Positions 1 through 14,353 of a stretch of 64,000 nt of DNA are shown here, piece by piece (within the stretch, counting starts at the first letter, position 1; each line of letters starts with the position of its first letter). The notes under the pieces are model-generated. The model did no database searches, was not told the origin of the DNA, and saw nothing but the letters and a program-made list of their open reading frames with translations. The translations under genes were made by a program, and so were the position numbers. This DNA is from Bacteroidales bacterium. Lineage in GTDB: Bacteria > Bacteroidota > Bacteroidia > Bacteroidales > UBA932. The DNA is taken from assembly GCA_017454905.1 (NCBI GenBank), contig JAFTCB010000018.1, positions 1 to 64,000 on the forward strand, written 5' to 3'.

Positions 1-1005
1 CTCCACGCGAATATCGAGGACGTCTATTATCTTCGTGTCCAGAGCCGTTCCGACCAGGGGCCACTGGCCGATGTCCTGGCGGCATTGCCCTGCGTGAAAA
101 GAATCGGATTCAGCCAGGGGGCTCCGGGCGCCCGGACGGGCGGACAGTTTTCGCTGACCCGCGACGGAAGCGAGATCATGTACCGGACCTTCAAGATGGA
201 CAGCACCGCCTTCGACATTTTCCATTTTGAGAAACTGAAGGACTTTGAGGCGCCCCAATTCAATGCCGTTTGGTTTGGCGAGGCGGCTTTTGCGGCATCG
301 GGATTTGACGACGAGTATCACGACATCAGCCAGACGCTGTCCCAAAGGACGCGGGGGTGTGAGTATGTGGCCGGCGTGATCAAGGATTTCCCGGTGAATC
401 TGTCCAACGCCGGAACGGAAGATTATCTCTTCGTGTCCGTCATGAAGCGTGAGGACTTGATGTGGGGAGGCTGGGTCATCGAGACCGTCGGTGACCGGGC
501 GGAGGCGCGGAAAGCAATCAGACAGGTATATGAGGACTGGAGCCGGACCAATATCGCCAGCGTGGCGGACAACGGTTTCCTCACGGAAAACTATCGGGAA
601 GCGCTCCGCCCTGCCCGCAACAATATGCGCCTGCTGGAACTGTTTATGCTGCTCTCTGTCTTGATTTCCCTGCTGGGCCTGCTGGCCATGAGTACCTATT
701 TTGCCGATGAAAAAGCCCATGACATCGCCGTGCGGAAGGTTTTCGGAGGCACGGTGGACTCAGAGACCTGGCGGACGATCCGGGACTATATGATTCTGGT
801 AGGCATCGCCTGTATCATCGGCATTCCGATTGCGGTCTATGCCGCGCAGGAATACCTCAAAGATTTCATTTACAGGCTGGAAGGATATTGGTGGATTTTC
901 GTGGTGGCCGTGCTGCTCACCGGGCTTATCGCGTTTGTCTCTGTCATCTGGCAGGTATTGAAGGCAGCTAAGACCAATCCGGCTGTAGAATTGAAAAAAG
1001 AATAA
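1..1005 (+). CDS. MacB/FtsX-type ABC permease, C-terminal part
   Basis: The frame is open from base 1, so the gene starts outside the window and about the last 334 residues are visible. The first part is an extracytoplasmic (MacB-PCD-like) domain. The last 130 residues form a three-helix FtsX domain whose helices contain LFMLLSVLISLLGLLAM, YMILVGIACIIGIPIAVYA and WWIFVVAVLLTGLIAFVSV. The tail ends in KAAKTNPAVELKKE, nearly the same as the three full permeases downstream, so this is a fourth paralog. It is probably an inner-membrane subunit working with the shared ATPase at 8890-9570. Substrate unknown. The internal ATG at base 85 is not the start. Confidence 0.9.
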   Translation, partial: LHANIEDVYYLRVQSRSDQGPLADVLAALPCVKRIGFSQGAPGARTGGQFSLTRDGSEIMYRTFKMDSTAFDIFHFEKLKDFEAPQFNAVWFGEAAFAASGFDDEYHDISQTLSQRTRGCEYVAGVIKDFPVNLSNAGTEDYLFVSVMKREDLMWGGWVIETVGDRAEARKAIRQVYEDWSRTNIASVADNGFLTENYREALRPARNNMRLLELFMLLSVLISLLGLLAMSTYFADEKAHDIAVRKVFGGTVDSETWRTIRDYMILVGIACIIGIPIAVYAAQEYLKDFIYRLEGYWWIFVVAVLLTGLIAFVSVIWQVLKAAKTNPAVELKKE

Positions 1006-1033: not shown

Positions 1034-1147
1034 TTATGCATATTGGTTGATATACTGGATGATCCCTCTGACGTGTAGGCCGATGATGGCTCGGCGGCCG
1101 GGGGCGGATTCGAGGAAAGCGATGTCCTGGGGGTTGAAGTGTAAAGA
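1034..1147 (-). pseudogene. Possible 3' remnant of an unidentified gene
   Basis: On the reverse strand an open frame runs from 1147 to a TAA at 1034-1036. It reads FNPQDIAFLESAPG, then RRAIIGLHVRGIIQYINQYA, which looks like a genuine protein C-terminus. There is no start codon. The upstream end runs into the regulatory palindromes at 1140-1178 and meets a stop at 1148-1150. I do not recognise the family. It may be a leftover of a gene displaced when the exporter locus assembled, or chance. Confidence 0.25.
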
Positions 1148-1178
1148 TCATTTACAGGAAGTGTAAAATTATGTTACA
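1140..1178 (+). promoter_or_regulatory. Tandem 17-bp palindromic operators, copy 1
   Basis: Two palindromes, TGTAAA-GATCA-TTTACA (1140-1156) and TGTAAA-ATTAT-GTTACA (1162-1178), lie 22 bp apart (two helical turns). They sit 55-93 bp upstream of a sigma54 promoter. The same pair occurs at 6218-6255 and 8738-8775. The arrangement is typical of enhancer sites for NtrC-family activators, and the likely ligand is the response regulator at 3953-5326. Confidence 0.75.
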
Positions 1179-1189
1179 CTTCCTGTTTT
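1155..1189 (+). terminator. Stem-loop terminator of the first permease, overlapping operator 2
   Basis: Perfect 12-bp arms (CAGGAAGTGTAA at 1155-1166, TTACACTTCCTG at 1174-1185) with a 7-nt loop are followed by TTTT. The hairpin embeds the second operator palindrome, so the same DNA probably ends the upstream transcript and binds the activator. Confidence 0.55.
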
Positions 1190-1232
1190 GTATTATTTAT
1201 TAATCGATTGTCAATCAATTAAATAACAATAC

Positions 1233-1248
1233 TGGCACGGGGCATGCA
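1233..1248 (+). promoter_or_regulatory. Sigma54 (-24/-12) promoter of the TolC-HlyD-RR-HK operon
   Basis: TGGCACGGGGCATGCA has GG (1234-1235) and GC (1246-1247) separated by exactly 10 nt, the RpoN signature. The ATG at 1244 lies inside the -12 element, which rules it out as a start and supports ATG 1274. Confidence 0.75.
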
Positions 1249-1273
1249 GCGCAGAGGGGCAAAGGCATTGAAT

Positions 1274-2602
1274 ATGAAAAAGACCTCTCTGATATTGCTC
1301 CTCCTGCTCTCGGCCGTCCTCCGGCCCGCCGCCGCGCAGCAGCCGATGACCCTGCACGACTGCATGGAGTACGCCTTGTCGCATGCCACCAAACTGCGCA
1401 TCCGGCAGGCCGAGACCGGTGACGCCCGCATCGCGCGGCGTGACGCCCTCCTGGCGGTCTTCCTGCCGAACATCAACGGCAGCACATCCGCCTACTACAA
1501 CTTCGGCCGCAACATCGACCCGGAGACCAACACCTACATCAACACGGTCTCCTTCAACAACGGCTACAGCCTCTCCGCAAGCATCACCCTGTTCAACGGC
1601 TTCTCCGCCGTCAACAACCTCAAGATCTCCCAGACCTCCCTCAAGATGGGGAAGACCCGGGAACTGCAGGCCGAGGCGGACATCTGCCTGGCGGTGATGG
1701 AGGCCTACTACAATGTGCTGTATTACCAGAAACTGCTCGAAATCTACGAAAGCCAGGTCGCCACGGCGGAACAGCTCGTGCAAAAAGTCCGGCGCCAGGA
1801 GGAACTGGGCCAGAAAGGCCATGCCGACGTGGTCCAGCTGGAAGCCGACCTGGCCGACCGGCGCTACGACCTCGTGAACACGCGCAACCTGCTGGCCGAC
1901 CACCGGGTCAACCTCGAAGACCTGCTCTTCTGGCCGGGGGACGAACCGCTGGTGATTGACGACGGCGTGACTGCGCTTGTGCCGCAGCCGGCAACGGGGG
2001 ACAGCGGCCTGGTGGACTACGCCCTGGCCCACAATCCGGCCGTGCGGCTCGCGGCCTGGACCGTCGAGAACGCCCGCCTGGAACTCAACACGGCGAAATG
2101 GCAGATCCTGCCCAGCGTGAGCCTTTCCAGCGGCTGGAGCACCAGCTACTACTCCTACCAGGGCAACCAGACCACACCATACTTCGACATGCTGCGCAGC
2201 AACGCCGGTGAGTACATTGCCATGTCCGTCAGCATTCCGATCTTCAACCGGCTCTCGCGTCAGTCCAACATCGCGCGCCGCCGCAATGCCCTCGTGCGGG
2301 CCACTGCGGAGTACGACCAGAAGCAGCGTGACGTGGAGTCCGAGGTGCGCCGGGCCGTGCAGGACCGCGACGGCGCGGAAGCCGCCTATGAGCAGGCCGA
2401 GCGCAAAGCCGAAGTCCAGCAGGAGGCCTACGCTCTCAACACCCGCAAGATGGAGCAGGGACTGATCTCCCCGCTGGAGTACCAGACGGCGGCCAACAAC
2501 TACCTGCGCGCCGGCGCCGACCGGCTGAACAGCCTCTTCAAATTCCTCATCAAGCAGAGCATTGTCCGCTACTACGGCGGCGAAGAATATATCAACCAGT
2601 AA
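1274..2602 (+). CDS. TolC-family outer membrane efflux protein
   Basis: 442 residues from ATG 1274, starting with a signal peptide (MKKTSLILLLLLSAVL, cleavage after about AAAQ). The body has the duplicated helical-hairpin pattern of outer-membrane efflux proteins, with long Ala/Glu/Gln-rich helices around residues 120-220 and 320-430 and beta segments such as VSFNNGYSLSASITLFNGF. It should form the trimeric outer membrane channel of a tripartite exporter. It heads an operon with the adaptor (2676), response regulator and kinase under the sigma54 promoter at 1233-1248. The longer frame from 1244 is rejected because that ATG lies in the promoter. Confidence 0.92.
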   Translation: MKKTSLILLLLLSAVLRPAAAQQPMTLHDCMEYALSHATKLRIRQAETGDARIARRDALLAVFLPNINGSTSAYYNFGRNIDPETNTYINTVSFNNGYSLSASITLFNGFSAVNNLKISQTSLKMGKTRELQAEADICLAVMEAYYNVLYYQKLLEIYESQVATAEQLVQKVRRQEELGQKGHADVVQLEADLADRRYDLVNTRNLLADHRVNLEDLLFWPGDEPLVIDDGVTALVPQPATGDSGLVDYALAHNPAVRLAAWTVENARLELNTAKWQILPSVSLSSGWSTSYYSYQGNQTTPYFDMLRSNAGEYIAMSVSIPIFNRLSRQSNIARRRNALVRATAEYDQKQRDVESEVRRAVQDRDGAEAAYEQAERKAEVQQEAYALNTRKMEQGLISPLEYQTAANNYLRAGADRLNSLFKFLIKQSIVRYYGGEEYINQ

Positions 2603-2675
2603 AAGAGATGGCCGGTCAGGCCGGCTGTAACAAGTCATGCCCGGTCAGCCCGGGCATCCTATAAGACAGAAGAAT

Positions 2676-3929
2676 ATGGACAAGATTATCGAAAAGAAGA
2701 AAGGCTGGCGCCTCGCATTCACCAGGAAGGCGCTCCCTTACTGGCTCGGCGGCGTCGTGCTCGTCTTCATCGGCTACCTCATCCTGCGGCCGGATACCCA
2801 GACCCTGCGCGTGGCAGGCGATGCCTTCACGGCCAGTACGGTCCAGCGCGGCGAATTCAACGACTACATCCGGGTCAGCGGGCAGGTCCACCCGATGACG
2901 ACCATCCAGCTCTCCCCGCAGGAAGGCGGCATCGTGCAGCAGATCCTGATCGAGGAAGGCTCCGCCGTCAGGGCCGGCGATCCGATCCTCGTGCTTTCAA
3001 ACGACAACCTGGACCTGCAGATCCTGAACTCCGAGGCCGAGCTGGCCGAGAAAGAGAACATCCTGCGCAACACCCAGATCCAGATGGAGCAGCAGAAGCT
3101 GGATGTCCGCCAGAACGTGCTGGAATACGGCACGCAGGTGGAGCGGCTCAAGCGCGCCTACGAACAGCAGAAAGCCCTATACGACGAGAAACTCATCGCC
3201 CGGGAGGAATACCTCAAGGCCGAAGAGGACTACCGCCTGGCCCGCTCGAAATATGCCCTTATCAGCGAACGCTCCAAGCAGGACAGCCTCTACCGCGGCA
3301 CCCAGATCAACCGGATGGAAGAGTCCCTGGAGAACATGCAGCTGAACATGCAGATGATCCGCAAGCGCAAAAGCAACCTCGTCGTCAAGGCGCCGATCGA
3401 CGGCGAACTGGGTCTGCTGGACGTCGTGCTCGGCCAGTCCGTTGCTTCGGGCACCAAGATCGGCCAGATCAACAGCGTGGGCAGCTACAAGGTCGAAGCC
3501 AAGATCGACGAGCACTATATCGACAAGGTCATCCCCGGACTCGAGGCCACCTTCGAACGCCAGGGCGAGCAGTACTCCATGGAGATCCGCAAGGTCTATC
3601 CGGAGGTGCGCGACGGCAAGTTCCAGGCGGACTTCAAGTTCACCGGCGTGCAGCCCGACAACATCCGCACGGGCCAGACCTACTACCTCAACCTCCAGCT
3701 CGGCCAGCCCGAGGAAGCGGTCATCATCCCCCGCGGCACCTTCTACCAGAAGACCGGCGGCAAATGGATCTACGTGCTCTCCGGCGAGGGCAAGGCCGTC
3801 CGCCGCGAGATCCGCATCGGCCGCCAGAACCCGCAGTACTACGAGGTGCTCGAAGGCCTGGAGCCGGGGGAGCGGGTGATCACCTCCTCCTATGATACTT
3901 TCGGCGACGCCGACGTGCTTGTATTCTAA
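2676..3929 (+). CDS. HlyD/RND-type periplasmic adaptor (membrane fusion protein)
   Basis: 417 residues from ATG 2676. One N-terminal transmembrane helix (about residues 18-36, LPYWLGGVVLVFIGYLIL) anchors it in the inner membrane. A lipoyl half (QLSPQEGGIVQQILIEEG), a long alpha-hairpin coiled coil (about residues 105-225), the second lipoyl half (LVVKAPIDGELGLLDVVLGQ) and beta-barrel/membrane-proximal domains follow. It should bridge the MacB-like permeases and the TolC-like channel encoded just upstream. The 73-nt gap to the TolC gene has no clear terminator, so the two are probably co-transcribed. The frame can be extended upstream, but ATG 2676 gives the typical basic N-terminus before the helix. 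Confidence 0.92.
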   Translation: MDKIIEKKKGWRLAFTRKALPYWLGGVVLVFIGYLILRPDTQTLRVAGDAFTASTVQRGEFNDYIRVSGQVHPMTTIQLSPQEGGIVQQILIEEGSAVRAGDPILVLSNDNLDLQILNSEAELAEKENILRNTQIQMEQQKLDVRQNVLEYGTQVERLKRAYEQQKALYDEKLIAREEYLKAEEDYRLARSKYALISERSKQDSLYRGTQINRMEESLENMQLNMQMIRKRKSNLVVKAPIDGELGLLDVVLGQSVASGTKIGQINSVGSYKVEAKIDEHYIDKVIPGLEATFERQGEQYSMEIRKVYPEVRDGKFQADFKFTGVQPDNIRTGQTYYLNLQLGQPEEAVIIPRGTFYQKTGGKWIYVLSGEGKAVRREIRIGRQNPQYYEVLEGLEPGERVITSSYDTFGDADVLVF

Positions 3930-3936
3930 TTTTCCC

Positions 3937-3944
3937 TAACTTTG
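3937..3944 (+). promoter_or_regulatory. -7 element (TAACTTTG) before the response regulator
   Basis: Matches the Bacteroidota -7 consensus TAnnTTTG 8 nt before ATG 3953. I see no good -33 box at the usual spacing. It may give a basal supply of regulator and kinase independent of the sigma54 promoter. Confidence 0.4.
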
Positions 3945-3952
3945 CAGTAAGC

Positions 3953-5326
3953 ATGGAAAAGAAAGGCAAGATCCTCGTCGTGGACGACAACCAGGGCATC
4001 CGTTCCGCCCTCGGCCTGCTGCTGCCTCCGCATTTCGCGGAGGTGGAGCTGATTCCTTCCCCGACGACGCTGGTATCCACCCTGGAGCGCTTCCGCCCGG
4101 ACGTGGTCCTGCTGGACATGAATTTCTATACCGACACCAACACCGGAAACGAAGGCCTCTATTGGACCGGCCAGATCAAGCAGATGTCCCCGTTGACGGA
4201 GGTGGTGCTCTTCACCGCCTACGCGGACATCCAGCTGGCGGTGGAGGGGATGCGCCGGGGTGCTTTCGACTTCATCGTGAAGCCCTGGGAGAACGACAAA
4301 CTCATCGCCGTGCTCTCCGCCGCCCGCGACAAGGCGCGGAAGGCGCAGGGGAGAGAGGTCCGGCCGGGGACAGGCAAGGCAGGCCTCGCCGCAGCCGCCA
4401 GTCCCATGTTCTGGGGCTCTTCGCCTGCCATGGAGATCATCCGCCGCCATGTCTCCAAGATCGCCCCGACCGACGCCACCGTGCTCATCACGGGAGCCAA
4501 CGGTACGGGCAAGGATGTGCTGGCGGGCGAGATCCATGCCCGGAGCCTGCGTTCCGCGAAGCCGCTGGTGGCCGTGGATGCCGGCGCCATTCCGGAGACC
4601 CTGTTCGAGAGCGAACTGTTCGGGCACATCAAAGGCGCCTTCACCGATGCCCATGCCGATCATGTCGGCAAATTTGAACAAGCCGACGGCGGCACCCTCT
4701 TCCTGGACGAGATCGGCAACATCCCCCTGCACCTGCAAGCCAAGTTGCTGCGCGCCATCCAGAACCGCAGCATCACGCGGGTGGGGGACACGAAGGCCCG
4801 TCCGGTGGACATCCGGCTCATCTGTGCGACCAACATGGACCTGGAAGCGCTTGTGCGTGAGGGGCGTTTCCGCGAAGACCTCTACTACCGCATCAACACG
4901 ATGCACTTGCATCTGCCGTCCCTGAACGACCGTCCGGACGACATCCTGCCGCTCGCGGAACGTTTCATCCTGCGGTACAACGAGAAATACCACCGCGCCG
5001 TCTCCGGCTTGACGCCGGCCGCCGGGGAAGCGCTGCGTGCCCACAACTGGAGCGGCAACATCCGCGAATTGCAGAACTGCATCGAGAAGGCCGTGATCCT
5101 GGCGGAAGGGGAGTGCCTGGATGTCCAGGACCTGCAGCTCGGCGAGCGCCGTGATCTGTCGGGAAGCGCCCCGGCCGGAGGAGGTGCCCAGACCCTGGAA
5201 ATGGCGGAAGAACGGACGATCCGGGAAGCGATGACCCGCTTCGGCGGCAACCTGACTGCCGTGGCGAAGGCCCTGAATATCAGCCGCCCGACCCTGTATC
5301 GAAAACTCAGTAAATACAATATATGA
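3953..5326 (+). CDS. NtrC-family sigma54-dependent response regulator
   Basis: 457 residues in three domains. The receiver (about 1-125) has acidic pocket D11-D12 and phosphoacceptor D55 (VVLLDMNF). The AAA+ domain (about 150-380) has Walker A GANGTGKD, Walker B GGTLFLDEIG and an arginine-finger region. The C-terminal Fis-type HTH (about 415-457) ends in ALNISRPTLYRKLSKY. The sigma54-contact loop reads GAFTDA rather than the canonical GAFTGA. It is the obvious ligand for the tandem palindromes at 1140, 6218 and 8738, each paired with a -24/-12 promoter, including the promoter of its own operon. Its stop overlaps the kinase start (ATGA, 5323-5326). Confidence 0.94.
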   Translation: MEKKGKILVVDDNQGIRSALGLLLPPHFAEVELIPSPTTLVSTLERFRPDVVLLDMNFYTDTNTGNEGLYWTGQIKQMSPLTEVVLFTAYADIQLAVEGMRRGAFDFIVKPWENDKLIAVLSAARDKARKAQGREVRPGTGKAGLAAAASPMFWGSSPAMEIIRRHVSKIAPTDATVLITGANGTGKDVLAGEIHARSLRSAKPLVAVDAGAIPETLFESELFGHIKGAFTDAHADHVGKFEQADGGTLFLDEIGNIPLHLQAKLLRAIQNRSITRVGDTKARPVDIRLICATNMDLEALVREGRFREDLYYRINTMHLHLPSLNDRPDDILPLAERFILRYNEKYHRAVSGLTPAAGEALRAHNWSGNIRELQNCIEKAVILAEGECLDVQDLQLGERRDLSGSAPAGGGAQTLEMAEERTIREAMTRFGGNLTAVAKALNISRPTLYRKLSKYNI

Positions 5327-6204
5327 TGTCCTGGTGGCTGATCGTTTTGCTGATGGTGGCCGTCGCGTTATTCGTGGCGGCCCTCACTGCGTATTGGGTC
5401 CGCCGCCGCGACCGCAAGAAAGTCGCCTACATGCTTGACTCCCTGGAAGACGGGGAACTGAATTTCCGCTTTGTGGAAAAGAGTTCGTTCGAGCGTACGC
5501 TCAACCGTCTGCGCTGGATCTTCGAACGCCAGCGCCAGCGCAATGAGCAGGAGTCCTGGACCAAGCTGATCCGCGTGCTCACGCATGAGATCATGAATAC
5601 GGTCTCGCCGATCGCCTCGTTGAGCGATGCGCTCAGCAAATATGCCGACCTGCCTGCCGAGCAGCAGGAAATGGACGTCAAGGCGGGCTTGCAGACCATT
5701 TCCGACTCTTCCCGCAACCTCATCCGCTTCGTGGAGACCTATCGCGAACTCTCCGGCGTCGCCCGGCCGTTCAAGAAGGCGGTGATGCTGGATGAACTGG
5801 TGGACAAGGTGCTGCACCTGACGGAGAAGCAGTGTGCGGATGCCGGAGCCGTCTGCAGCTACAGCGCTTCCAGCCCGGATATCCTGCTCTACCTCGATGA
5901 GGGGCAGATTTCGCAGATCTTCATCAACCTGATCAAAAACGCCCTGCAGGCCGGAGCCACGCAGATCACCATCACGGCCTTCATCGACCGGGCCGAGGAG
6001 ACCCATGTGCGCTTCGCCAACAACGGGGAACCGATCAGCAAGGAGAGCCAGGAACAGATCTTCGTGCCGTTCTACACCACCAAGAAAGAAGGCAGCGGCA
6101 TCGGCCTGAGCATCTCCCGCCAGATCATGAACCAGCACAACGGGACCATCGACCTCCTTTGGTCCAACAACACCGAGACCGCCTTCGAGCTCCTTTTCCG
6201 GTAA
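5323..6204 (+). CDS. Sensor histidine kinase, short N-terminus
   Basis: 293 residues with one N-terminal membrane helix (about 5-25) and no recognisable periplasmic sensor domain. The phosphoacceptor is H88 in RVLTHEIMNTVSPI. The HATPase domain (about 185-293) carries the N box (FINLIKNALQAG) and G box (EGSGIGLSISRQIM). Its ATG overlaps the stop of the response regulator by 4 nt, implying translational coupling and a cognate pair. With no periplasmic domain it may sense within the membrane or through the exporter itself, as in Bce-type modules; that is inference. Confidence 0.9.
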   Translation: MMSWWLIVLLMVAVALFVAALTAYWVRRRDRKKVAYMLDSLEDGELNFRFVEKSSFERTLNRLRWIFERQRQRNEQESWTKLIRVLTHEIMNTVSPIASLSDALSKYADLPAEQQEMDVKAGLQTISDSSRNLIRFVETYRELSGVARPFKKAVMLDELVDKVLHLTEKQCADAGAVCSYSASSPDILLYLDEGQISQIFINLIKNALQAGATQITITAFIDRAEETHVRFANNGEPISKESQEQIFVPFYTTKKEGSGIGLSISRQIMNQHNGTIDLLWSNNTETAFELLFR

Positions 6205-6217
6205 CGGGGATATCGGG

Positions 6218-6255
6218 TGTAAAGTGCCTTTACACAAGTGTAAAAGATCGTTACA
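6218..6255 (+). promoter_or_regulatory. Tandem 17-bp palindromic operators, copy 2
   Basis: TGTAAA-GTGCC-TTTACA (6218-6234) and TGTAAA-AGATC-GTTACA (6239-6255) lie 21 bp apart, upstream of the sigma54 promoter at 6311. Same arm sequences and order as copies 1 and 3, while the 5-bp spacers differ, so the arms are what is conserved. Confidence 0.75.
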
Positions 6256-6310
6256 GGTTTTTTGCGCGGTGGATTGTAGAAGATTTTAATTTTCAAGTAA
6301 TTACGAATTC

Positions 6311-6326
6311 TGGCACGGGGTTGGCT
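6311..6326 (+). promoter_or_regulatory. Sigma54 promoter of the second permease
   Basis: TGGCACGGGGTTGGCT has GG (6312-6313), 10 nt, then GC (6324-6325). The predicted start is near 6337, leaving a short leader before ATG 6355. Confidence 0.75.
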
Positions 6327-6354
6327 GTGCTCTCGTGCGCGTTGTGATATAAAC

Positions 6355-8724
6355 ATGAAAAGTTATCTGAAGTTCCTTTCCCGTAACAAACTGTACACCG
6401 CCATCGAGGCGGTGGGGCTGGCCGTGAGCCTGGCTTTCGTGATCCTGATCGGCAGCTACGTGGTGCAGCAGTACCAGGTGGCGCATGAATCGTCGGCGTG
6501 GGAGAGCACCTTTGCGCTGGGAAGTGACGATTTCCTGGGCCTGACCTACTGGGACAAGGAGGAGCTGGAAATGAACATCCCGGAAGTGGAGGCGGCGACG
6601 CACATGGCGCTCCTCTGGCAGCCGGTAATCCAATACGGCGGGGAGAGGCTCCAGGTGGCAGGCATTGAGGGGGATGCCGACTTCTTCAAGGTGTTCCCGC
6701 AGTACCGCCTCCTGGAAGGAAACCTCGATGACTTCGTGGGCAAGGACGACATCCTTATCAGCGAGTCCCTGGCCCGGAAGACGGGCGTCCGGATCGGCCA
6801 GACCCTCAGGATCGAAGACGCGGACCATACCATCAAGGGTATTTTTGCCGATTTCGAAGGAGCCTTCTTCATGCCTGCGGACATCATCACGAACATCACC
6901 GCCACATGGGCGGCCGAAGCGGAGAAGGCATTCAACAGCATCGGCAACTACACCACCTGGTTCCGGGTGCGGAAAGATGCGGACCCGTCCGAGGTTCAGG
7001 CCAAGGTGAAAGCCCTGCTGCACAAGAACTATGACCCCACCTGGTCTGCGGAAAGGGTGGACAAGTGGCGCGCCTACCGCATGGACGAGGCCTTCTTCTT
7101 CACCGGCAGCAGCTCCGGGCTCACCCGTACGGGAAATGCCCAGTTGCTGCGCCTGTTGACCATCGTGGTCCTGTTGCTCCTCCTTTCGGCCGTCTTCAAC
7201 TACGTGAACCTGAGCCTGGCGCTTACCGGAAAGCGCGCCAAGGAGATGGCTACCCGGCGGCTCCTGGGGGCCGGCAAGACCGGCATCCTGTGGAAGTATA
7301 TCGGCGAATCCGTGGCCTTCACCGCCGTCTGTTTCGCGCTGGCGCTCCTGCTGGCTGACCTGCTGGCCCCCATGGTGAACAACCTGGTTTCCTCCAGCGA
7401 TCCGGACGAGGTGATGCTGGGCTTTGACTCCAGCGTACGGCTTTCCTTCATGCTTACGCCCGGCTATATCCTGGCCTATCTGGCGGGTATCCTGATCCTG
7501 GGCGTGATCAACGGCCTGCTCCCGGCTTTCGCCGCATCACGCTATGAACCCATCGACGTGATCAAGGGCACGCTCCGGCGCCGCAACAAGATGGTCCTGA
7601 GCAAAGTGTTTATCGTGGTGCAGAACGTCCTTTCCGTCTTCCTGATTGCCCTGGCGCTGGTGATGGAGGTGCAGATGCGTCACATGCTCACCCGGCCGAC
7701 GCACGCTGCCACGGACAACCTTTTCTACATCGAATATTCCGCCCGGGACTACGATGCGATGAAGCTTTTCAAAGACAAAGTGGAGCAGCTCCCCTTCGTG
7801 ACCCAGGCAGGCGTAGGCCGTGGAATTCCCGGCATGATTAATATGACCATGGGCGTCAGGGTGGATGAAGAACATCATGTAGACATGCCGGTCATTGTCT
7901 GCGATTCTACCTATTTCCGCCTTTTGGGGCTGGAAGTGGAGGAAGATTTCGGTCATCCGCTGGTGCATTCGCTCTGGATGAGCCGTTCCGCCTTCAACGC
8001 AGCTGCGGTGTCGGACACTTCCACCGTATTTCCCCGGCGGATCAGCATGAACGGCGCCCGGCCGGAGTTTATCGGCGGCGTGGTGACCGATTTCCCTTCC
8101 AGGCCGGCCTCGGAAGTCGACCAAAACCCGAATGGCGGGGTCATCGTCATCCGGGCCGAAGAGCTCAGCTACTCCAATAGCCTGCTGATCGGTACCACCG
8201 GGGAGGACAAGTCCTATGAGGACCGGATCCGGCAGGCTTACCGGGAATTCCGGCTGGAGACCTCCGGTGTCGAGGACCCTGCCTGGCGCTACGGCTTCAT
8301 CCGGGACATCAACCGGAAGCAGTTGGCACCGGTACAGCGGACCTTGCGCCTGGTGGAACTCTTCGCCGCGCTGGCGGTCCTCATCTCCCTGCTGGGCCTG
8401 CTGGCCATGAGCACCTGGTTTGCCGATGAAAATACCAAACAGATTGCCGTCCGCAAGGTATTCGGCTCCGATGTGTCGCAGGAGACCTGGCGTTCGGTCC
8501 GCAGCTACATGCTGCTGGTGGGCGTGGCCTGCCTCATCGGCGTCCCGCTGGCCGTCTGGGCCGCCGGCGTCTATCTGGAGCGCTTCACCTACCGGATCGA
8601 TGGCTACGGCTGGGTGTTCGCGGCCGCGGCTGTGCTCTCCCTGGCCATCGCCTTCGGGACCGTGCTCTGGCAGACGCTGAAAGCCGCCCGGACCAACCCG
8701 GCGACAGAACTGAAAAAGGAATAG
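6355..8724 (+). CDS. MacB/FtsX-type ABC permease (paralog 2)
   Basis: 789 residues. Eight predicted helices: about 17-38, 262-290, 312-337, 372-393, 417-440, 666-688, 716-738 and 751-773. Large extracytoplasmic MacB-PCD-like domains sit at about 40-260 and 441-660, so this is the double-length FtsX architecture common in Bacteroidota. N-terminus MKSYLKFLSRNKLYTAIEA and C-terminus ending NPATELKKE are near-identical to the paralogs at 9571 and 11981. No ATPase is fused; it should use the single ATPase at 8890. It has its own palindrome pair and sigma54 promoter. Likely role: mechanotransmission-type export with the HlyD/TolC partners. Substrate unknown. Confidence 0.92.
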   Translation: MKSYLKFLSRNKLYTAIEAVGLAVSLAFVILIGSYVVQQYQVAHESSAWESTFALGSDDFLGLTYWDKEELEMNIPEVEAATHMALLWQPVIQYGGERLQVAGIEGDADFFKVFPQYRLLEGNLDDFVGKDDILISESLARKTGVRIGQTLRIEDADHTIKGIFADFEGAFFMPADIITNITATWAAEAEKAFNSIGNYTTWFRVRKDADPSEVQAKVKALLHKNYDPTWSAERVDKWRAYRMDEAFFFTGSSSGLTRTGNAQLLRLLTIVVLLLLLSAVFNYVNLSLALTGKRAKEMATRRLLGAGKTGILWKYIGESVAFTAVCFALALLLADLLAPMVNNLVSSSDPDEVMLGFDSSVRLSFMLTPGYILAYLAGILILGVINGLLPAFAASRYEPIDVIKGTLRRRNKMVLSKVFIVVQNVLSVFLIALALVMEVQMRHMLTRPTHAATDNLFYIEYSARDYDAMKLFKDKVEQLPFVTQAGVGRGIPGMINMTMGVRVDEEHHVDMPVIVCDSTYFRLLGLEVEEDFGHPLVHSLWMSRSAFNAAAVSDTSTVFPRRISMNGARPEFIGGVVTDFPSRPASEVDQNPNGGVIVIRAEELSYSNSLLIGTTGEDKSYEDRIRQAYREFRLETSGVEDPAWRYGFIRDINRKQLAPVQRTLRLVELFAALAVLISLLGLLAMSTWFADENTKQIAVRKVFGSDVSQETWRSVRSYMLLVGVACLIGVPLAVWAAGVYLERFTYRIDGYGWVFAAAAVLSLAIAFGTVLWQTLKAARTNPATELKKE

Positions 8725-8737
8725 GGGAGCGGATGTG

Positions 8738-8775
8738 TGTAAACAGTCTTTACACCGGTGTAAAAAACCGTTACG
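8738..8775 (+). promoter_or_regulatory. Tandem 17-bp palindromic operators, copy 3
   Basis: TGTAAA-CAGTC-TTTACA (8738-8754) and TGTAAA-AAACC-GTTACG (8759-8775) lie 21 bp apart and 56-93 bp upstream of the promoter at 8831. One base of the last arm differs from copies 1 and 2. Confidence 0.7.
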
Positions 8776-8830
8776 GAATGATACTGGATTTGATTTTGTA
8801 ATAGATTGATTATAAATTAAATAGTCTAAT

Positions 8831-8846
8831 TGGCATAAGCTTTGAG
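8831..8846 (+). promoter_or_regulatory. Sigma54-like promoter of the ATPase-permease operon
   Basis: TGGCATAAGCTTTGAG has GG (8832-8833), 10 nt, then GA instead of GC, a weaker -12 element. Its distance from the palindromes matches the other two copies. Confidence 0.6.
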
Positions 8847-8889: not shown

Positions 8890-9570
<681 letters not shown>

Positions 9571-11865
9571 ATGAAATCCTACCTGAAATTCCTTTCCCGC
9601 AACAAGCTCTACACCGCCATCCAGGCGGTGGGCCTCATCGTGAGCCTTGCCTTCGTGGTTATTATCTCCTGCTATACTTGGCAGCAGCTGGCCATCACGC
9701 GGGCTGCCAGGGACTACAAGCGCCTGTACGCGCTGACCGGCGGGCAGGAGTGGATTTCCGCCTGGCCCGGCGAGATGGCGACCGTGCAGGACCGGGTCCC
9801 GGACGTTGAGGCGGCCGGGAGACTCCAAAATCATGGGATGGCGGTCTGGTTCGATGGGAAAAAGGCGCCGGGGAATCCTAATGTCTATGAGATCGATCCG
9901 GAGATCTTCGAGTTCCTGCCGCAGACTTTTGTCTCCGGGGACGAGCGCATCCTGCAGGACCGGAGTCAGGTCATCCTGGGCGAATCTTTCGCGAAGAAAA
10001 TCTCTCCGGACCTGGATCCGGTGGGCAAGACCATCGTGATCCGCAGCGACACCTGCGTGGTCGGGGGTATCATCCGGGGGAATGACGATTCCATCCTGAA
10101 GGAAGCGGACATCTACCGCGCCTTCAAAGGGCCTGACGCGCCTTCCTCTTCAGAATTTGTCATTCCTGTGGACCTGGTCCTGCTTCGCTTGCGGGATGGG
10201 GCTGACCATCAGGCGGTACGGACGCTTATCGATACCGTGGTGACCCGGGAGTTCGCCCCGATGTACTCCGTCAATAAACCGGAGCGGCGGATGACCCTGC
10301 CGTTCCGGGAGCTCTATTTTCAGGAGACGGGAAATGTCATCAGGCATGGCAACGCCACCTGGGTGTATGTGCTGTTGGCCGTCGGGCTGCTGCTGCTTGC
10401 CTCGGCGCTCTTCAATTATATCAACCTCAGCGTCGCCCTGGCCGGCAAGCGGGCGAAGGAAATGGCCATCCGATCCACCCTGGGAGAGTCTGCAGAGAGG
10501 ATTCGCTGGCGATATGTCTCGGAGTCCGTCCTGTTCGTGGTGCTATGCCTGGCGCTTGCCCTGCTTTTAGCCAAGGCGCTTGAGCCTGTGTTCAACCGCT
10601 ATCTGATCGGGGATGTCCGGCTGGATGTGTCTCTCTCTCCGCTCTACCTGTGCGCATACGCCCTGCTGGCCATCATCATTGGCCTCGTGTCGGGCCTGAT
10701 CCCTGCCTGGATGACCTCGCGCTACCAGGCGGTGGAGGTCATCAAAGGAGAGCAGCGCCGACAGACCAAGACCCTGTTCTCCAAGGTCTTCATCATCATC
10801 CAGAACGTGATTACCGTGGCGCTGATCTCCCTGGCGCTGGTGATGGAACTCCAATACCGCCATTTGATGGACATGCCCCTGGGCGTTGACATGGACGGGT
10901 TGTATTTCACTAGCGTGAACGGCAAGGATGTCCTGGCATCCAAACCCTATGTTGACCGGTTGGGTAAGAGCAACGGTTATCCCGGTGCTGGGCAAATGTC
11001 ATTTACTACGACGGTGGAAGGGCAGAAAGTCCTGGTAGGGATTCTTCAATGCGACGGGACAGCTTTCGATATGTTCGGATTCGGGGTCGTGGAAGATTTC
11101 GGCACACCGAGGAATAACTCCCTGTGGTTCACCGAATCTGCTGCCAGGGTATTTTCCCTGGACAAAGAGAATCTCTCCCTGCCGGATGTGTTCAAGTGGG
11201 TGGTCGGAGATTCCCATGTGGGCGGGATCATCCGGGATTTCGCCATCAAGGGGCCGACTGAGGTGGATGGCAACCAGCTCGGCATCGTGTCCATCGAAAA
11301 ACTGGAGGGCAACTCCACAGTCGTCCTGAAGCTCAACCGCTTCGATGCCGAAGTGCGCGCGGAATTAAAAGAAATCAGCCGGGCCGAAAGCCTGCGGTTT
11401 ACGGGAGCGGAAGAATATGGGGAAAAGTATTACGGATACATCCCGGAGTTGATAGAGAAAAGCATGGAGACAACGCGCAACTTCATCAGCCTGATCGAAC
11501 TCTTCATGCTTCTGGCAACCCTCATCTCCCTCTTGGGTCTCGTCGCTATGAGCACGTACTATGCCGCGATGCAGACCCGGGACATCGCTGTGCGCAAGGT
11601 ATTCGGTGGCAGCGTCGCCACGGAGACGGGGCGTTCCGTGAAGGAATATCTGGTGCTGGTCGGCATCGCCGTCCTCATGGGAATTCCCATTGCCGTCTTC
11701 CTGGCCGAACGGTATTTGCGCCAGTTCTGGTACCGGATCGATCACTACGGGTGGGTGTTCGCCGCCGGGGCCGTTATCGCCCTGCTGATCTCCTTCCTTG
11801 CCGTGCTCTGGCAGACGCTTAAGGCCGCCCGGACCAACCCGGCGGTCGAATTGAAAAAAGAATAG
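9571..11865 (+). CDS. MacB/FtsX-type ABC permease (paralog 3)
   Basis: 764 residues with the same eight-helix, two-periplasmic-domain plan as its neighbours. TM1 is about 17-38, TM2 about 265-290 (AVGLLLLASALFNYINLSVA), TM5 about 405-428, and the last three helices lie after about 641. It begins immediately after the ATPase stop (9568-9570), so it is the most tightly coupled permease. The last 60 nt differ from those of the next paralog at only two positions, pointing to recent duplication or gene conversion. Confidence 0.92.
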   Translation: MKSYLKFLSRNKLYTAIQAVGLIVSLAFVVIISCYTWQQLAITRAARDYKRLYALTGGQEWISAWPGEMATVQDRVPDVEAAGRLQNHGMAVWFDGKKAPGNPNVYEIDPEIFEFLPQTFVSGDERILQDRSQVILGESFAKKISPDLDPVGKTIVIRSDTCVVGGIIRGNDDSILKEADIYRAFKGPDAPSSSEFVIPVDLVLLRLRDGADHQAVRTLIDTVVTREFAPMYSVNKPERRMTLPFRELYFQETGNVIRHGNATWVYVLLAVGLLLLASALFNYINLSVALAGKRAKEMAIRSTLGESAERIRWRYVSESVLFVVLCLALALLLAKALEPVFNRYLIGDVRLDVSLSPLYLCAYALLAIIIGLVSGLIPAWMTSRYQAVEVIKGEQRRQTKTLFSKVFIIIQNVITVALISLALVMELQYRHLMDMPLGVDMDGLYFTSVNGKDVLASKPYVDRLGKSNGYPGAGQMSFTTTVEGQKVLVGILQCDGTAFDMFGFGVVEDFGTPRNNSLWFTESAARVFSLDKENLSLPDVFKWVVGDSHVGGIIRDFAIKGPTEVDGNQLGIVSIEKLEGNSTVVLKLNRFDAEVRAELKEISRAESLRFTGAEEYGEKYYGYIPELIEKSMETTRNFISLIELFMLLATLISLLGLVAMSTYYAAMQTRDIAVRKVFGGSVATETGRSVKEYLVLVGIAVLMGIPIAVFLAERYLRQFWYRIDHYGWVFAAGAVIALLISFLAVLWQTLKAARTNPAVELKKE

Positions 11866-11980: not shown

Positions 11981-14353
11981 ATGAAAAGCTACCTGAAATT
12001 CCTGTCCCGCAATAAGCTCTACACCGCCATCGAAGCAGCCGGGCTCATCGTGAGCCTGGCCTTCGTGGTCATTATCGGCACCTCGATCCGGGACCAGCTG
12101 CGCATTTCCCGTGCTCCGGACGGACAGGAAAACCTGTACCTGCTCGGTCCGCCCTCGGACCCCGTTTTGGAATACCGGCAGGAAGAAGAACTCGCCGCGC
12201 TGCCGGATCTGCAGCAGACGGCGGCTTTCGTGCGTGCTGAAATGAATGTCCTGATCGACGGGGTGCCTCACCGGGCCCGGATCCTGCTGGCGGATGCCGG
12301 GCTGCTGGAAATGGTCCCGCTGGAGTTGCATACCGGCAGCATGGATCTTTTCAAGGCCGGCCCGGGTGTCCTGGTCACGGAATCTGCCGCCCGAAAGTAT
12401 TATCAGGGGCAGGATCCTCTGGACAAGATGCTGGAAATGCGCAGCGTCTCCGGGCGTGACGAGCGGGGGGCGGAGACCGTCCTTTCCTCCATCGTCGGCG
12501 TGGTCGGAGATCCGTCCTTTACGATTCTGGATGATTTTGATTTCCTGGTCAGTTTCCAGGCACCCATTCCGGCCGTGCGGGCCTATCGTGAATCGGATTT
12601 GCGCCATACCGGGACGGGCATGATGGTCCATATGCTGGCCCGGACTACGCCCCAGGCGGATATTCAGGAAGTCTCTGCCAAGTATGTGAAGTTGTGCGGA
12701 TGGTTCTTGAACAAGGATGAAAGGGAGGAACCGATGCTGACCCCGTATGAGGACCTGTTTTTCGCTTCGGAGATGCGCTCGCTGGGGATCCGCCACGGCA
12801 GCCGCCTTTATCTGGTGGTCCTTGTGATCCTGGGGCTGCTCCTGCTCGCTTTTGCTGTGCTGAATTATATCAATCTCAGTCTGGCCGCCTGCGGGGGCCG
12901 GGCGAAGGAGATGGCGACGCGCCGGCTGGTCGGGGAGTCGCGGGGATGTGTGATCCGGCGCTGCCTGCGCGAGTCTGTCCTGTTTGTACTCGTGTGTTTC
13001 GTGCTGGCCGCGCTGCTTGCCTGGGCGGTGGTTCCGGTGCTGAACAGTATCCGGCCTGTCGGGCTGACGGTCCCGTTGCGGGCGCATTTCGATGGATTCT
13101 TCCTGTTGCTGGGCCTCGTCTCCGTCCTGGGAATCGGCGGTCTGGTCGGGCTGCTCCCTGCCTTTTCCCTGGCTTCGTGGCTTCCGCTGGACGTCGTCTC
13201 CGGCCGGATCCGCCGCAGGCGGAAAATGGGGTTCAACCAGGTCAGCATCGTCGTCCAGTCCGCTCTGGCCCTGCTGCTCGTGGTGATGTCCATTACGATG
13301 GAGGTGCAGTTCCGCCATCTGCGGACGCTGGATACCGGGATCTCCCCGGTGCAGGACCTGTATTATTTCCATCCTGATTTCTATAAATCCCTGACGGGAC
13401 TGGCTGACCGGCTGGCGACTTCTCCCCAAGTGGAAGAAACGTGTTTTGCCGGAGGATTCCCTACACATCTCCGCATGACGACAGTGATCGACAGAACCTA
13501 TTCAGCCCAGGTCATCTATTGTGACAGTGTCGCTTTCCGGCTGCTGGGTTTCCGGGAGGCCCTGCGCTATGAGCAGCCTCATTCCGGGACGGTCTGGCCG
13601 GTCCGGAGCGCTTTCCTGGCGCTGGACATTTCTTCCGATCAGCCGGACCCGTCCCGGTTGGGCTATCTCGGAGAGGATTGTAGCATTGGCGGTATGCTGG
13701 AGGATTTCCGGCTGGCGCCGGTCAACGCAGAACTGCGGGACAATACCCTGGGCGCTGTACAGGTTACTGTACCCGAAGATGCCTCGGCCTCATCGGGCCT
13801 TTTGGTCCGTACGCGCGGCGACCACAGGGAGTTCGACCGTTTCTTCAAGGAGGCGGCGACGGAGTATTGCCGTTCGGAGCTGGGGGTGGACCTCACGTTC
13901 GAAGGAAAATACAACGAGTGCGGTTATCTGGAAGACATCATTGCACGGGATTACGACGACCTGCACCGTTTCACGCGGCTCGTCGAGGTCTTCAGCCTGA
14001 TTATTATCCTGCTCTCCATGCTGGGCCTGCTCGCGATGAGCACCTGGTATGCGGACACCCATACCAAGGGGATCGCCATCCGAAAAGTCTTCGGCGGCAC
14101 GATGAACAGCGAGACCCGGCGCGCCGTGCTTTCCTATATGTCGTGGGTGGCCGTGGCGCTGGTCCTGGCCGTACCGGCCGGCGTCATGCTGGTCCGGCGC
14201 TTCCTGGAGTATTATCCAGAGCGGATCAGCGGCTGGTGGTGGATTTTCGCCGTGGCGGTGCTGCTGATCCTGGCCGTTTCCTTTGTCTCCGTGCTCTGGC
14301 AGACGCTGAAGGCCGCCCGGACCAACCCGGCGGTCGAATTGAAAAAAGAATAA
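11981..14353 (+). CDS. MacB/FtsX-type ABC permease (paralog 4)
   Basis: 790 residues, same architecture as paralogs 2 and 3. It starts MKSYLKFLSRNKLYTAIEA and ends TLKAARTNPAVELKKE. The middle extracytoplasmic domains are much more divergent than the ends, as expected if each permease handles a different ligand or partner while sharing the ATPase-contacting parts. It lies 115 nt after paralog 3 with no visible promoter and is probably the last gene of that operon; the next gene has its own -7 element. Confidence 0.92.
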   Translation: MKSYLKFLSRNKLYTAIEAAGLIVSLAFVVIIGTSIRDQLRISRAPDGQENLYLLGPPSDPVLEYRQEEELAALPDLQQTAAFVRAEMNVLIDGVPHRARILLADAGLLEMVPLELHTGSMDLFKAGPGVLVTESAARKYYQGQDPLDKMLEMRSVSGRDERGAETVLSSIVGVVGDPSFTILDDFDFLVSFQAPIPAVRAYRESDLRHTGTGMMVHMLARTTPQADIQEVSAKYVKLCGWFLNKDEREEPMLTPYEDLFFASEMRSLGIRHGSRLYLVVLVILGLLLLAFAVLNYINLSLAACGGRAKEMATRRLVGESRGCVIRRCLRESVLFVLVCFVLAALLAWAVVPVLNSIRPVGLTVPLRAHFDGFFLLLGLVSVLGIGGLVGLLPAFSLASWLPLDVVSGRIRRRRKMGFNQVSIVVQSALALLLVVMSITMEVQFRHLRTLDTGISPVQDLYYFHPDFYKSLTGLADRLATSPQVEETCFAGGFPTHLRMTTVIDRTYSAQVIYCDSVAFRLLGFREALRYEQPHSGTVWPVRSAFLALDISSDQPDPSRLGYLGEDCSIGGMLEDFRLAPVNAELRDNTLGAVQVTVPEDASASSGLLVRTRGDHREFDRFFKEAATEYCRSELGVDLTFEGKYNECGYLEDIIARDYDDLHRFTRLVEVFSLIIILLSMLGLLAMSTWYADTHTKGIAIRKVFGGTMNSETRRAVLSYMSWVAVALVLAVPAGVMLVRRFLEYYPERISGWWWIFAVAVLLILAVSFVSVLWQTLKAARTNPAVELKKE

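Follow-up and report, generated by a model that had tools for sequence, protein, structure and literature searches.

The left end of a 64,000-nucleotide stretch of DNA from a Bacteroidales bacterium (GTDB lineage Bacteroidota, Bacteroidia, Bacteroidales, UBA932; GenBank assembly GCA_017454905.1, contig JAFTCB010000018.1, positions 1 to 64,000), here called the window, encodes an export machinery together with an NtrC-type response regulator and a histidine kinase. At three places in this locus, tandem palindromic sites of the form TGTAAA-N5-TTTACA precede a sigma54-type promoter element. We propose that the regulator and its kinase, which has no recognisable sensor domain, very probably run an autoregulated sigma54 export regulon through these operators. 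The sites, their phasing and conservation, their co-occurrence with the regulator and the signature in its recognition helix are all read from sequence. The genes and elements of the locus are the following:

1..1005, + strand: C-terminal part of an FtsX permease, truncated by the contig start (Pfam)
1140..1156, + strand: operator 1a, TGTAAAGATCATTTACA, perfect arms; GG of the -24 element 94 bp after its start
1162..1178, + strand: operator 1b, TGTAAAATTATGTTACA, 1 mismatch; within an inverted repeat with 13-bp arms, ACAGGAAGTGTAA..TTACACTTCCTGT
1233..1247, + strand: P1, sigma54-type -24/-12 element, TGGCACGGGGCATGC
1274..2602, + strand: TolC-type outer membrane efflux protein (Pfam OEP, 7.7e-51)
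2676..3929, + strand: HlyD/RND-type periplasmic adaptor (Pfam HlyD_3, 2.4e-15)
3953..5326, + strand: NtrC-type response regulator; receiver, AAA+ sigma54 activator domain (GAFTDA loop), HTH_8 with recognition helix SRPTLY
5323..6204, + strand: histidine kinase; HEIMN H-box, HATPase_c, one N-terminal hydrophobic segment (by eye)
6218..6234, + strand: operator 2a, TGTAAAGTGCCTTTACA
6239..6255, + strand: operator 2b, TGTAAAAGATCGTTACA
6311..6325, + strand: P2, sigma54-type element, TGGCACGGGGTTGGC
6355..8724, + strand: MacB_PCD/FtsX permease, ADOP-like (Pfam)
8738..8754, + strand: operator 3a, TGTAAACAGTCTTTACA
8759..8775, + strand: operator 3b, TGTAAAAAACCGTTACG, 2 mismatches
8831..8845, + strand: P3, sigma54-type element, TGGCATAAGCTTTGA
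8890..9570, + strand: ABC transporter ATPase, DarD/MacB/LolD-like (Pfam ABC_tran, 3.7e-37)
9571..11865, + strand: MacB_PCD/FtsX permease (Pfam)
11981..14353, + strand: FtsX permease (Pfam)

Pfam agrees with the gene functions that an earlier note on this DNA had assigned: OEP/TolC, HlyD, Response_reg with Sigma54_activat and HTH_8, a HATPase_c kinase, a MacB_PCD/FtsX permease, an ABC ATPase and FtsX permeases. The reading frames of the channel and the adaptor open at 1244 and 2637, and the ATG codons at 1274 and 2676 were taken as their starts. In NCBIfam the adaptor meets the RND_mfp cut-off, and its best equivalog is DarC at 209 bits, under the cut-off of 450 bits. The ATPase scores 282 bits for DarD and the permease at 6355..8724 scores 156 bits for ADOP (TIGR03434), under the cut-offs of 375 and 622 bits. 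The regulator, with its receiver, Sigma54_activat and HTH_8 domains in Pfam, scores best for PEP_resp_reg, AtoC, NtrC and ZraR and misses the equivalog cut-offs of all four; its GAFTDA loop is also present in the regulators of two relatives, L097 and L121. For the kinase no sensor domain scores above the Pfam cut-offs and HATPase_c alone passes, while residues 1-30 consist, by eye, of one hydrophobic segment and a basic stretch. To judge from the distance, the permease at 11981..14353 probably shares a transcription unit with the ATPase-permease operon.

When the window is searched for TGTAAAN5TTTACA with at most two mismatches, six matches are found; 100 dinucleotide shuffles gave 0.41 on average and none of them reached six. 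The matches start at 1140, 1162, 6218, 6239, 8738 and 8759 and form three tandem pairs, with 22, 21 and 21 bp from start to start, where the earlier note had placed them. The near-constant distance to a GG-N10-GC/GA element, also claimed there, holds well: the GG of the -24 element lies 94 bp past the first half-site at P1, P2 and P3 alike. By sequence, the -24/-12 elements before the target genes are of the GG-N10-GC type, with P3 and a promoter on contig C11 (see below) ending in GA. The first site has perfect arms, TGTAAA-N5-TTTACA, in all three pairs. The second site reads TGTAAA-N5-GTTACA in two pairs and, with two mismatches, TGTAAA-N5-GTTACG in the third, so the claim that the spacers differ and the arms do not is right for the first sites but slightly too strong for the second ones. 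At 1157-1192 there is also a long inverted repeat with operator half-sites in its arms.

The same type of promoter is found elsewhere in the genome. The assembly has 2.42 Mb in 62 contigs at 82% completeness, and the window begins where its contig C48 begins. A pattern search gives a fourth pair on contig C11, before a MacB/FtsX-like permease and with TGGCACTATGATTGA downstream. At its left end C11 holds the front part of a permease, and the window opens with the rear part of one. The two contigs are therefore probably neighbours, and the piece on C11, behind this fourth promoter, is probably the N-terminal part of the permease at 1..1005. A fifth promoter of the same type, on contig C10, has half-sites at -94, -83, -72, -64 and -52 relative to its GG and lies upstream of a 108-aa secreted-looking protein, whose carboxypeptidase-regulatory-like match, at 30.6 bits, stays below the cut-off of 32.3. 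Two relatives, L097 (5834-6151) and L121 (6938-7255), encode an ortholog of the small protein immediately before the regulator gene, and there too it has a promoter of this type. The small-protein locus on C10 (L016) is near a contig end.

Other sites with two mismatches in the genome were rejected as mostly due to chance, as they occur at 41 places against 36 for a reversed control pattern; at places on C26 and C19 a second full site at 20-22 bp was not found by eye. Further, the assembly has one rpoN (a single PF04552 match, 180 bits) and three strong sigma54 activators. The recognition helix can be read in two of these three, and SRPTLY is found solely in the window regulator, the other one being SERTIYRKL.

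For the study of close relatives, 80 of 223 confirmed relatives were kept, which together with the window and the C11 stretch gives 82 sources. Most of the named relatives come from metagenome assemblies of ruminant or other animal gut samples, and one is a Candidatus Cryptobacteroides. A strict scan for the palindrome pair gave 22 pairs in the 82 sources, compared with 1, 2 and 5 for three control patterns, which left an impression of poor conservation. This impression was overturned because a scan for half-sites showed other orientations in many of the relatives.

Among the 316 starts of genes matched by the cluster proteins, 81 have a sigma54-like element within 110 bp, picked without reference to half-sites. 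After 8 promoters more than 85% alike were dropped, 73 non-redundant promoters remain, and these contain 280 exact half-sites. In comparison, the median for 59 permuted control hexamers is 7, and the highest count, 64, belongs to TAAAGT, which overlaps the true motif. The positions of the half-sites cluster near -105, -98/-95, -84, -73, -63 and -54. The 262 half-sites that fall between -120 and -40 fit a period of 10.5 bp best (R 0.71); when the set of each promoter was shifted at random in 5000 trials, R averaged 0.09 and never exceeded 0.29. At least one half-site lies at -120 to -40 in 64 of the 73 promoters. Two or more are present before TolC in 37 of 37 promoters, before the regulator in 18 of 20, before the permeases, pooled, in 6 of 10, before the ATPase in 1 of 1, before HlyD in 1 of 2 and before the kinase in 0 of 3.

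The orientation of the half-sites is less constant than their position: near -84, 28 point forward and 27 backward. In the window the arrangement is > < > <, i.e. two palindromes. In close relatives, many TolC promoters instead have > > > < <, with the forward repeats about 11 bp apart, and an array related to this direct-repeat type is also found in another family (G265). Across whole genomes of the genus, the direct-repeat pattern occurs in 11 of 20 genomes with the regulator and in 2 of 17 without it, and a reversed control in 2 of 37. Since the position relative to the promoter is kept while the orientation changes, the phased half-site looks like the unit under selection, and the 17-bp palindrome pair looks like one of at least two arrangements of it. 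The earlier note had set beforehand that absence of the palindromes from related genomes would speak against its reading; they do recur in relatives, with the qualification that the pair is only one of at least two arrangements. The two spacers of a pair also show some mirror symmetry: over 33 pairs, a mean of 2.70 of the 5 positions agree, whereas shuffled pairing gives 2.03 on average and at most 2.67 in 2000 shuffles. This is suggestive, and as it is uncorrected for relatedness we leave it out of the argument.

Next, 393 genomes of the order were scanned for a pattern of three half-sites. It is present in 16 of them, and a reversed control in a single one. In the stretches examined, the pair also stands before TolC, ATPase or permease genes of other families (f4, f55, f101 and f111). 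The arrangement persists in families with regulators at 61-68% identity. Across all loci analysed, a sigma54-like GG is found at 92-95 bp for 33 of 70 oriented tandem pairs, while 0.56 is expected per 7-bp window; since a palindromic pair is seen from either strand, roughly one in two of these oriented pairs necessarily points away from any promoter. Some further putative targets in other families, named by eye, are a secreted-looking protein with repeated GSG motifs (L170, 4505), a carboxylesterase-like protein (L142, 1490), a small repeat protein (L186, 6532) and a zinc-ribbon/oxidase-like protein (L178, 6729).

In the same 393 genomes a homolog search, scoring up to four candidates per genome, finds an ortholog of the regulator with at least 60% identity in 17. 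The pattern is present in 10 of these 17 genomes and in 6 of the 376 others (Fisher 6.5e-12); without the window genome it is 9 of 16 (Fisher 9.4e-11). None of the 17 other genomes with a match, whose best one is 50-58% identical, carries the three-half-site pattern. In the recognition helix, among the matches listed, all orthologs with at least 60% identity have SRPT[LM]Y, and SRPT is found in all 76 genus loci read, while all nine distinct relatives at 48-56%, among the matches listed, have [ST]RQTLY. The pattern is absent from all eight sampled genomes of these [ST]RQTLY relatives. Around the 48-56% orthologs and the paralogs of genome G382, a de novo search for palindromes of other sequence at this phase gave nothing convincing beyond the TGTAAA type; its candidates were one of TGTC type in L203 and one of TGTAAA type in L205 of genome G263.

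Genome G382 has 18 regulator matches, 16 of them paralogs at 42-47% identity, with one TRPTLY and one SRPAIY among the helices of the 16. The single pair of this genome is found some 50 bp before the TRPTLY gene; towards a permease, a sigma54-like GG follows at 105 bp, one helical turn past the usual distance. These paralogs (L206, L210, L215 and L219-L231) have diverse recognition helices and offer natural material for studying helix-operator covariation.

In the window the regulator and the kinase lie behind P1, after TolC and HlyD. In part of the relatives the regulator gene has operators of its own, and a sigma54-like element within 110 bp is found for 21 of 81 regulator starts. Of the 34 distinct operators before regulator genes, 11 are overlapped by TAnnTTTG, against none of the 24 before TolC; among all TGTAA in these loci the background is 2.1%. 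According to PMC7366714, the housekeeping sigma factor of Bacteroides has TAnnTTTG as its -7 consensus. An operator placed on a housekeeping -7 box suggests repression of basal expression, and where the two overlap the regulator probably represses its housekeeping promoter. In 5 of the 11 cases a sigma54-like element lies further downstream. One relative also has tandem repeats of about 25 bp containing TGTAAT upstream of its regulator gene (L117, 9853-9952). The phasing, the co-occurrence with orthologs, the helix signature and these operators together support what the earlier note had suggested, namely that the NtrC-type regulator is the likely ligand of the sites and that the export regulon may be autoregulated.

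There are, on the other hand, a number of observations that weigh against this reading. The direct repeats of the TolC promoters are not expected for a simple symmetric dimer, and outside the genus the direct-repeat pattern is not enriched (5 of 24, control 9 of 24). The loci are related, and therefore the counts are not independent events. The loop that contacts sigma54 is GAFTDA and not the GAFTGA that is called invariant in PMC12316311. No sigma54-like element lies within 110 bp of 60 of the 81 regulator starts, that of the window included. Among the 17 genomes with a close ortholog 7 lack the exact pattern, and six genomes carry it without one. G263, with the helix SRQTIY, has three half-sites and a sigma54-like element before its ATPase gene, so the distinction between Pro and Gln is not absolute; G045, G105, G247 and G395 each have a single pattern match and no close homolog. 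Single exact palindromes also occur together with RQTLY relatives (G043 1, G046 2, G053 1, G058 1, G060 1), which is about the level of the reversed control in the same genomes (0, 1, 1, 0, 0). Within the genus the exact palindrome is only modestly associated with the regulator, in 13 of 20 genomes with it and 3 of 17 without (p 0.007). The regulator of G020 is truncated at a contig end, and once this genome is moved the counts become 14 of 21 and 2 of 16 (p 0.002); the truncation re-check within the genomes without the regulator covered G020 alone. G027 and G030 have one exact palindrome each, with no ortholog detected.

Two of these points, the direct-repeat arrays in the TolC promoters of relatives and the six of 376 genomes with the pattern but no close ortholog, would fit a different DNA-binding protein, another activator or a repressor, that co-occurs with the cluster and binds the sites while the encoded regulator acts elsewhere. 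We consider this improbable. Such a protein would not readily explain why some relatives have the sites before the very gene of the regulator, why they co-occur with orthologs of the regulator across families, or why the only pair of G382, among 16 paralogs, adjoins the only RPTLY paralog. Further, the second readable activator helix in the window genome, SERTIYRKL, is a different one.

Another possibility is that the palindromes serve the upstream genes, chiefly as transcription terminators or RNA hairpins, and that their likeness to operators is secondary. The inverted repeats in the TolC promoters do have long arms, 12.1 bp on average against 4.8 bp when shuffled. The arms reach at least 9 bp in 33 of 37 promoters, 27 of which have six or more T in the last 4 stem bases plus the next 8. 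They extend past the half-site, and the matching flanks differ in sequence (AAAG, GGAG, CAAG and others). However, a terminator does not need a 10.5-bp phase to a downstream sigma54 element, and in the promoters of the regulator genes the arms barely exceed the half-sites (mean 6.6 bp, shuffled 4.4). As the main role of the sites, termination is therefore very unlikely, but the inverted repeats of the TolC promoters (1157-1192 in the window, and L051-L130) may, to judge from their sequence, also terminate the upstream transcript.

That the shared sites are promoters duplicated together with the permease genes, undiverged yet and without function, is hardly credible. Several of the permeases, which are paralogs, do share this promoter type. 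By eye, however, the promoters of the window show no likeness in their spacers and flanks, and the same arrangement precedes TolC, the ATPase, the small secreted protein and the carboxylesterase-like protein of another family, and is kept in other families, with regulators at 61-68% identity.

From the activator reading we infer binding, activation, autoregulation and sensing as follows. The phased TGTAAA half-sites would be upstream activating sequences for the regulator at 3953-5326. The partner kinase at 5323-6204 would phosphorylate the regulator, which would then bind the two adjacent palindromes, at about -110 and -90 from the predicted start of transcription, with all half-sites on one face of the helix. 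From there its AAA+ domain could open sigma54 RNA polymerase at each -24/-12 element. P1 would drive the channel, the adaptor, the regulator and the kinase, P2 a permease and P3 the ATPase-permease operon, and the targets on other contigs, a further permease operon and the small secreted protein, would join the regulon. As P1 would also drive the regulator and the kinase, the circuit is predicted to be positively autoregulated. Since the kinase has no sensor domain, the permeases of the transporter are the likeliest sensors, by analogy with the Bce modules discussed below. That they act as flux sensors for the kinase is possible, and we suggest it tentatively.

A wider reading can be put together from these parts. 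Exporters in several Bacteroidales-type families would belong to a hitherto undescribed sigma54 regulon of scattered occurrence. Its enhancer would consist of half-sites on one face of the DNA, fixed in position to the helical turn and free in orientation, with the activator assembling on phased half-sites as such, and Pro versus Gln in RxTLY would mark the lineages that use the operator. The same operator would repress the housekeeping promoter of the regulator and activate the sigma54 promoters, i.e. act as a sigma-factor switch, and the sensorless kinase would read transporter activity as a sigma54 counterpart of Bce flux sensing. As a whole this picture is speculative and rather unlikely to hold in every part.

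The finding supplies a candidate regulator, an operator, a spacing rule and a list of putative targets for a class of exporters in gut and rumen bacteria. In addition, a phased array with variable orientation, together with the Pro/Gln marker, gives natural data on how an enhancer-binding protein chooses and arranges its DNA.

In NtrC itself, tandem palindromes lie upstream of a -24/-12 promoter. The system described here resembles the NtrC family of sigma54 enhancer-binding regulators in the receiver, the AAA+ domain, the Fis-type HTH and the tandem palindromes upstream of -24/-12 promoters. It differs from the known members in its operator TGTAAA-N5-TTTACA, its GAFTDA loop, its predicted regulon of MacB/FtsX exporters and the missed equivalog cut-offs. 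Half-sites in direct repeats before sigma54 promoters are also a feature of Nla28 of Myxococcus xanthus, where clusters of short half-sites form tandem repeats (PMC9765219). As described there, the Nla28 half-site is the 8-bp CT(C/G)CG(C/G)AG with variable spacers, whereas here it is the 6-bp TGTAAA at a fixed helical phase and in both orientations.

The earlier note had called the export regulon undescribed. This stands for the operator and the activator, of which searches of the open-licence literature showed no description, but sigma54 control of COG0577 permeases had been reported before. In PMC12316311 (2025), promoter scans placed sigma54 promoters before such permeases in Bacteroidia, termed first evidence, i.e. 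in the same phylum and for the same permease class as here; no activator or operator appears to be assigned there, and the terms "UAS" and "operator" are absent from its main text.

The encoded exporter resembles MacAB-TolC and the darobactin export system DarBCD, since a TolC channel, a HlyD/MacA-type adaptor, MacB_PCD/FtsX permeases and a separate ATPase are encoded together. It differs from both in having several permeases per cluster and in not reaching the equivalog cut-offs of MacA, MacB, DarB, DarC and DarD. In the Bce modules of Firmicutes the regulators are of the OmpR type, while here the regulator is an NtrC-type sigma54 activator, the transporter is a Gram-negative channel-adaptor-permease set and the kinase has, by eye, one hydrophobic segment. 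The likeness to Bce lies in a kinase without a dedicated sensing domain that is encoded with an ABC transporter; according to PMC10314905, such kinases are coupled to ABC transporters in Bce modules, and the transporter is upregulated. As a kind of system, then, a sigma54 activator with tandem upstream sites is well known. New here are the operator and its regulon, the rule of a fixed phase with variable half-site orientation, and the helix marker.

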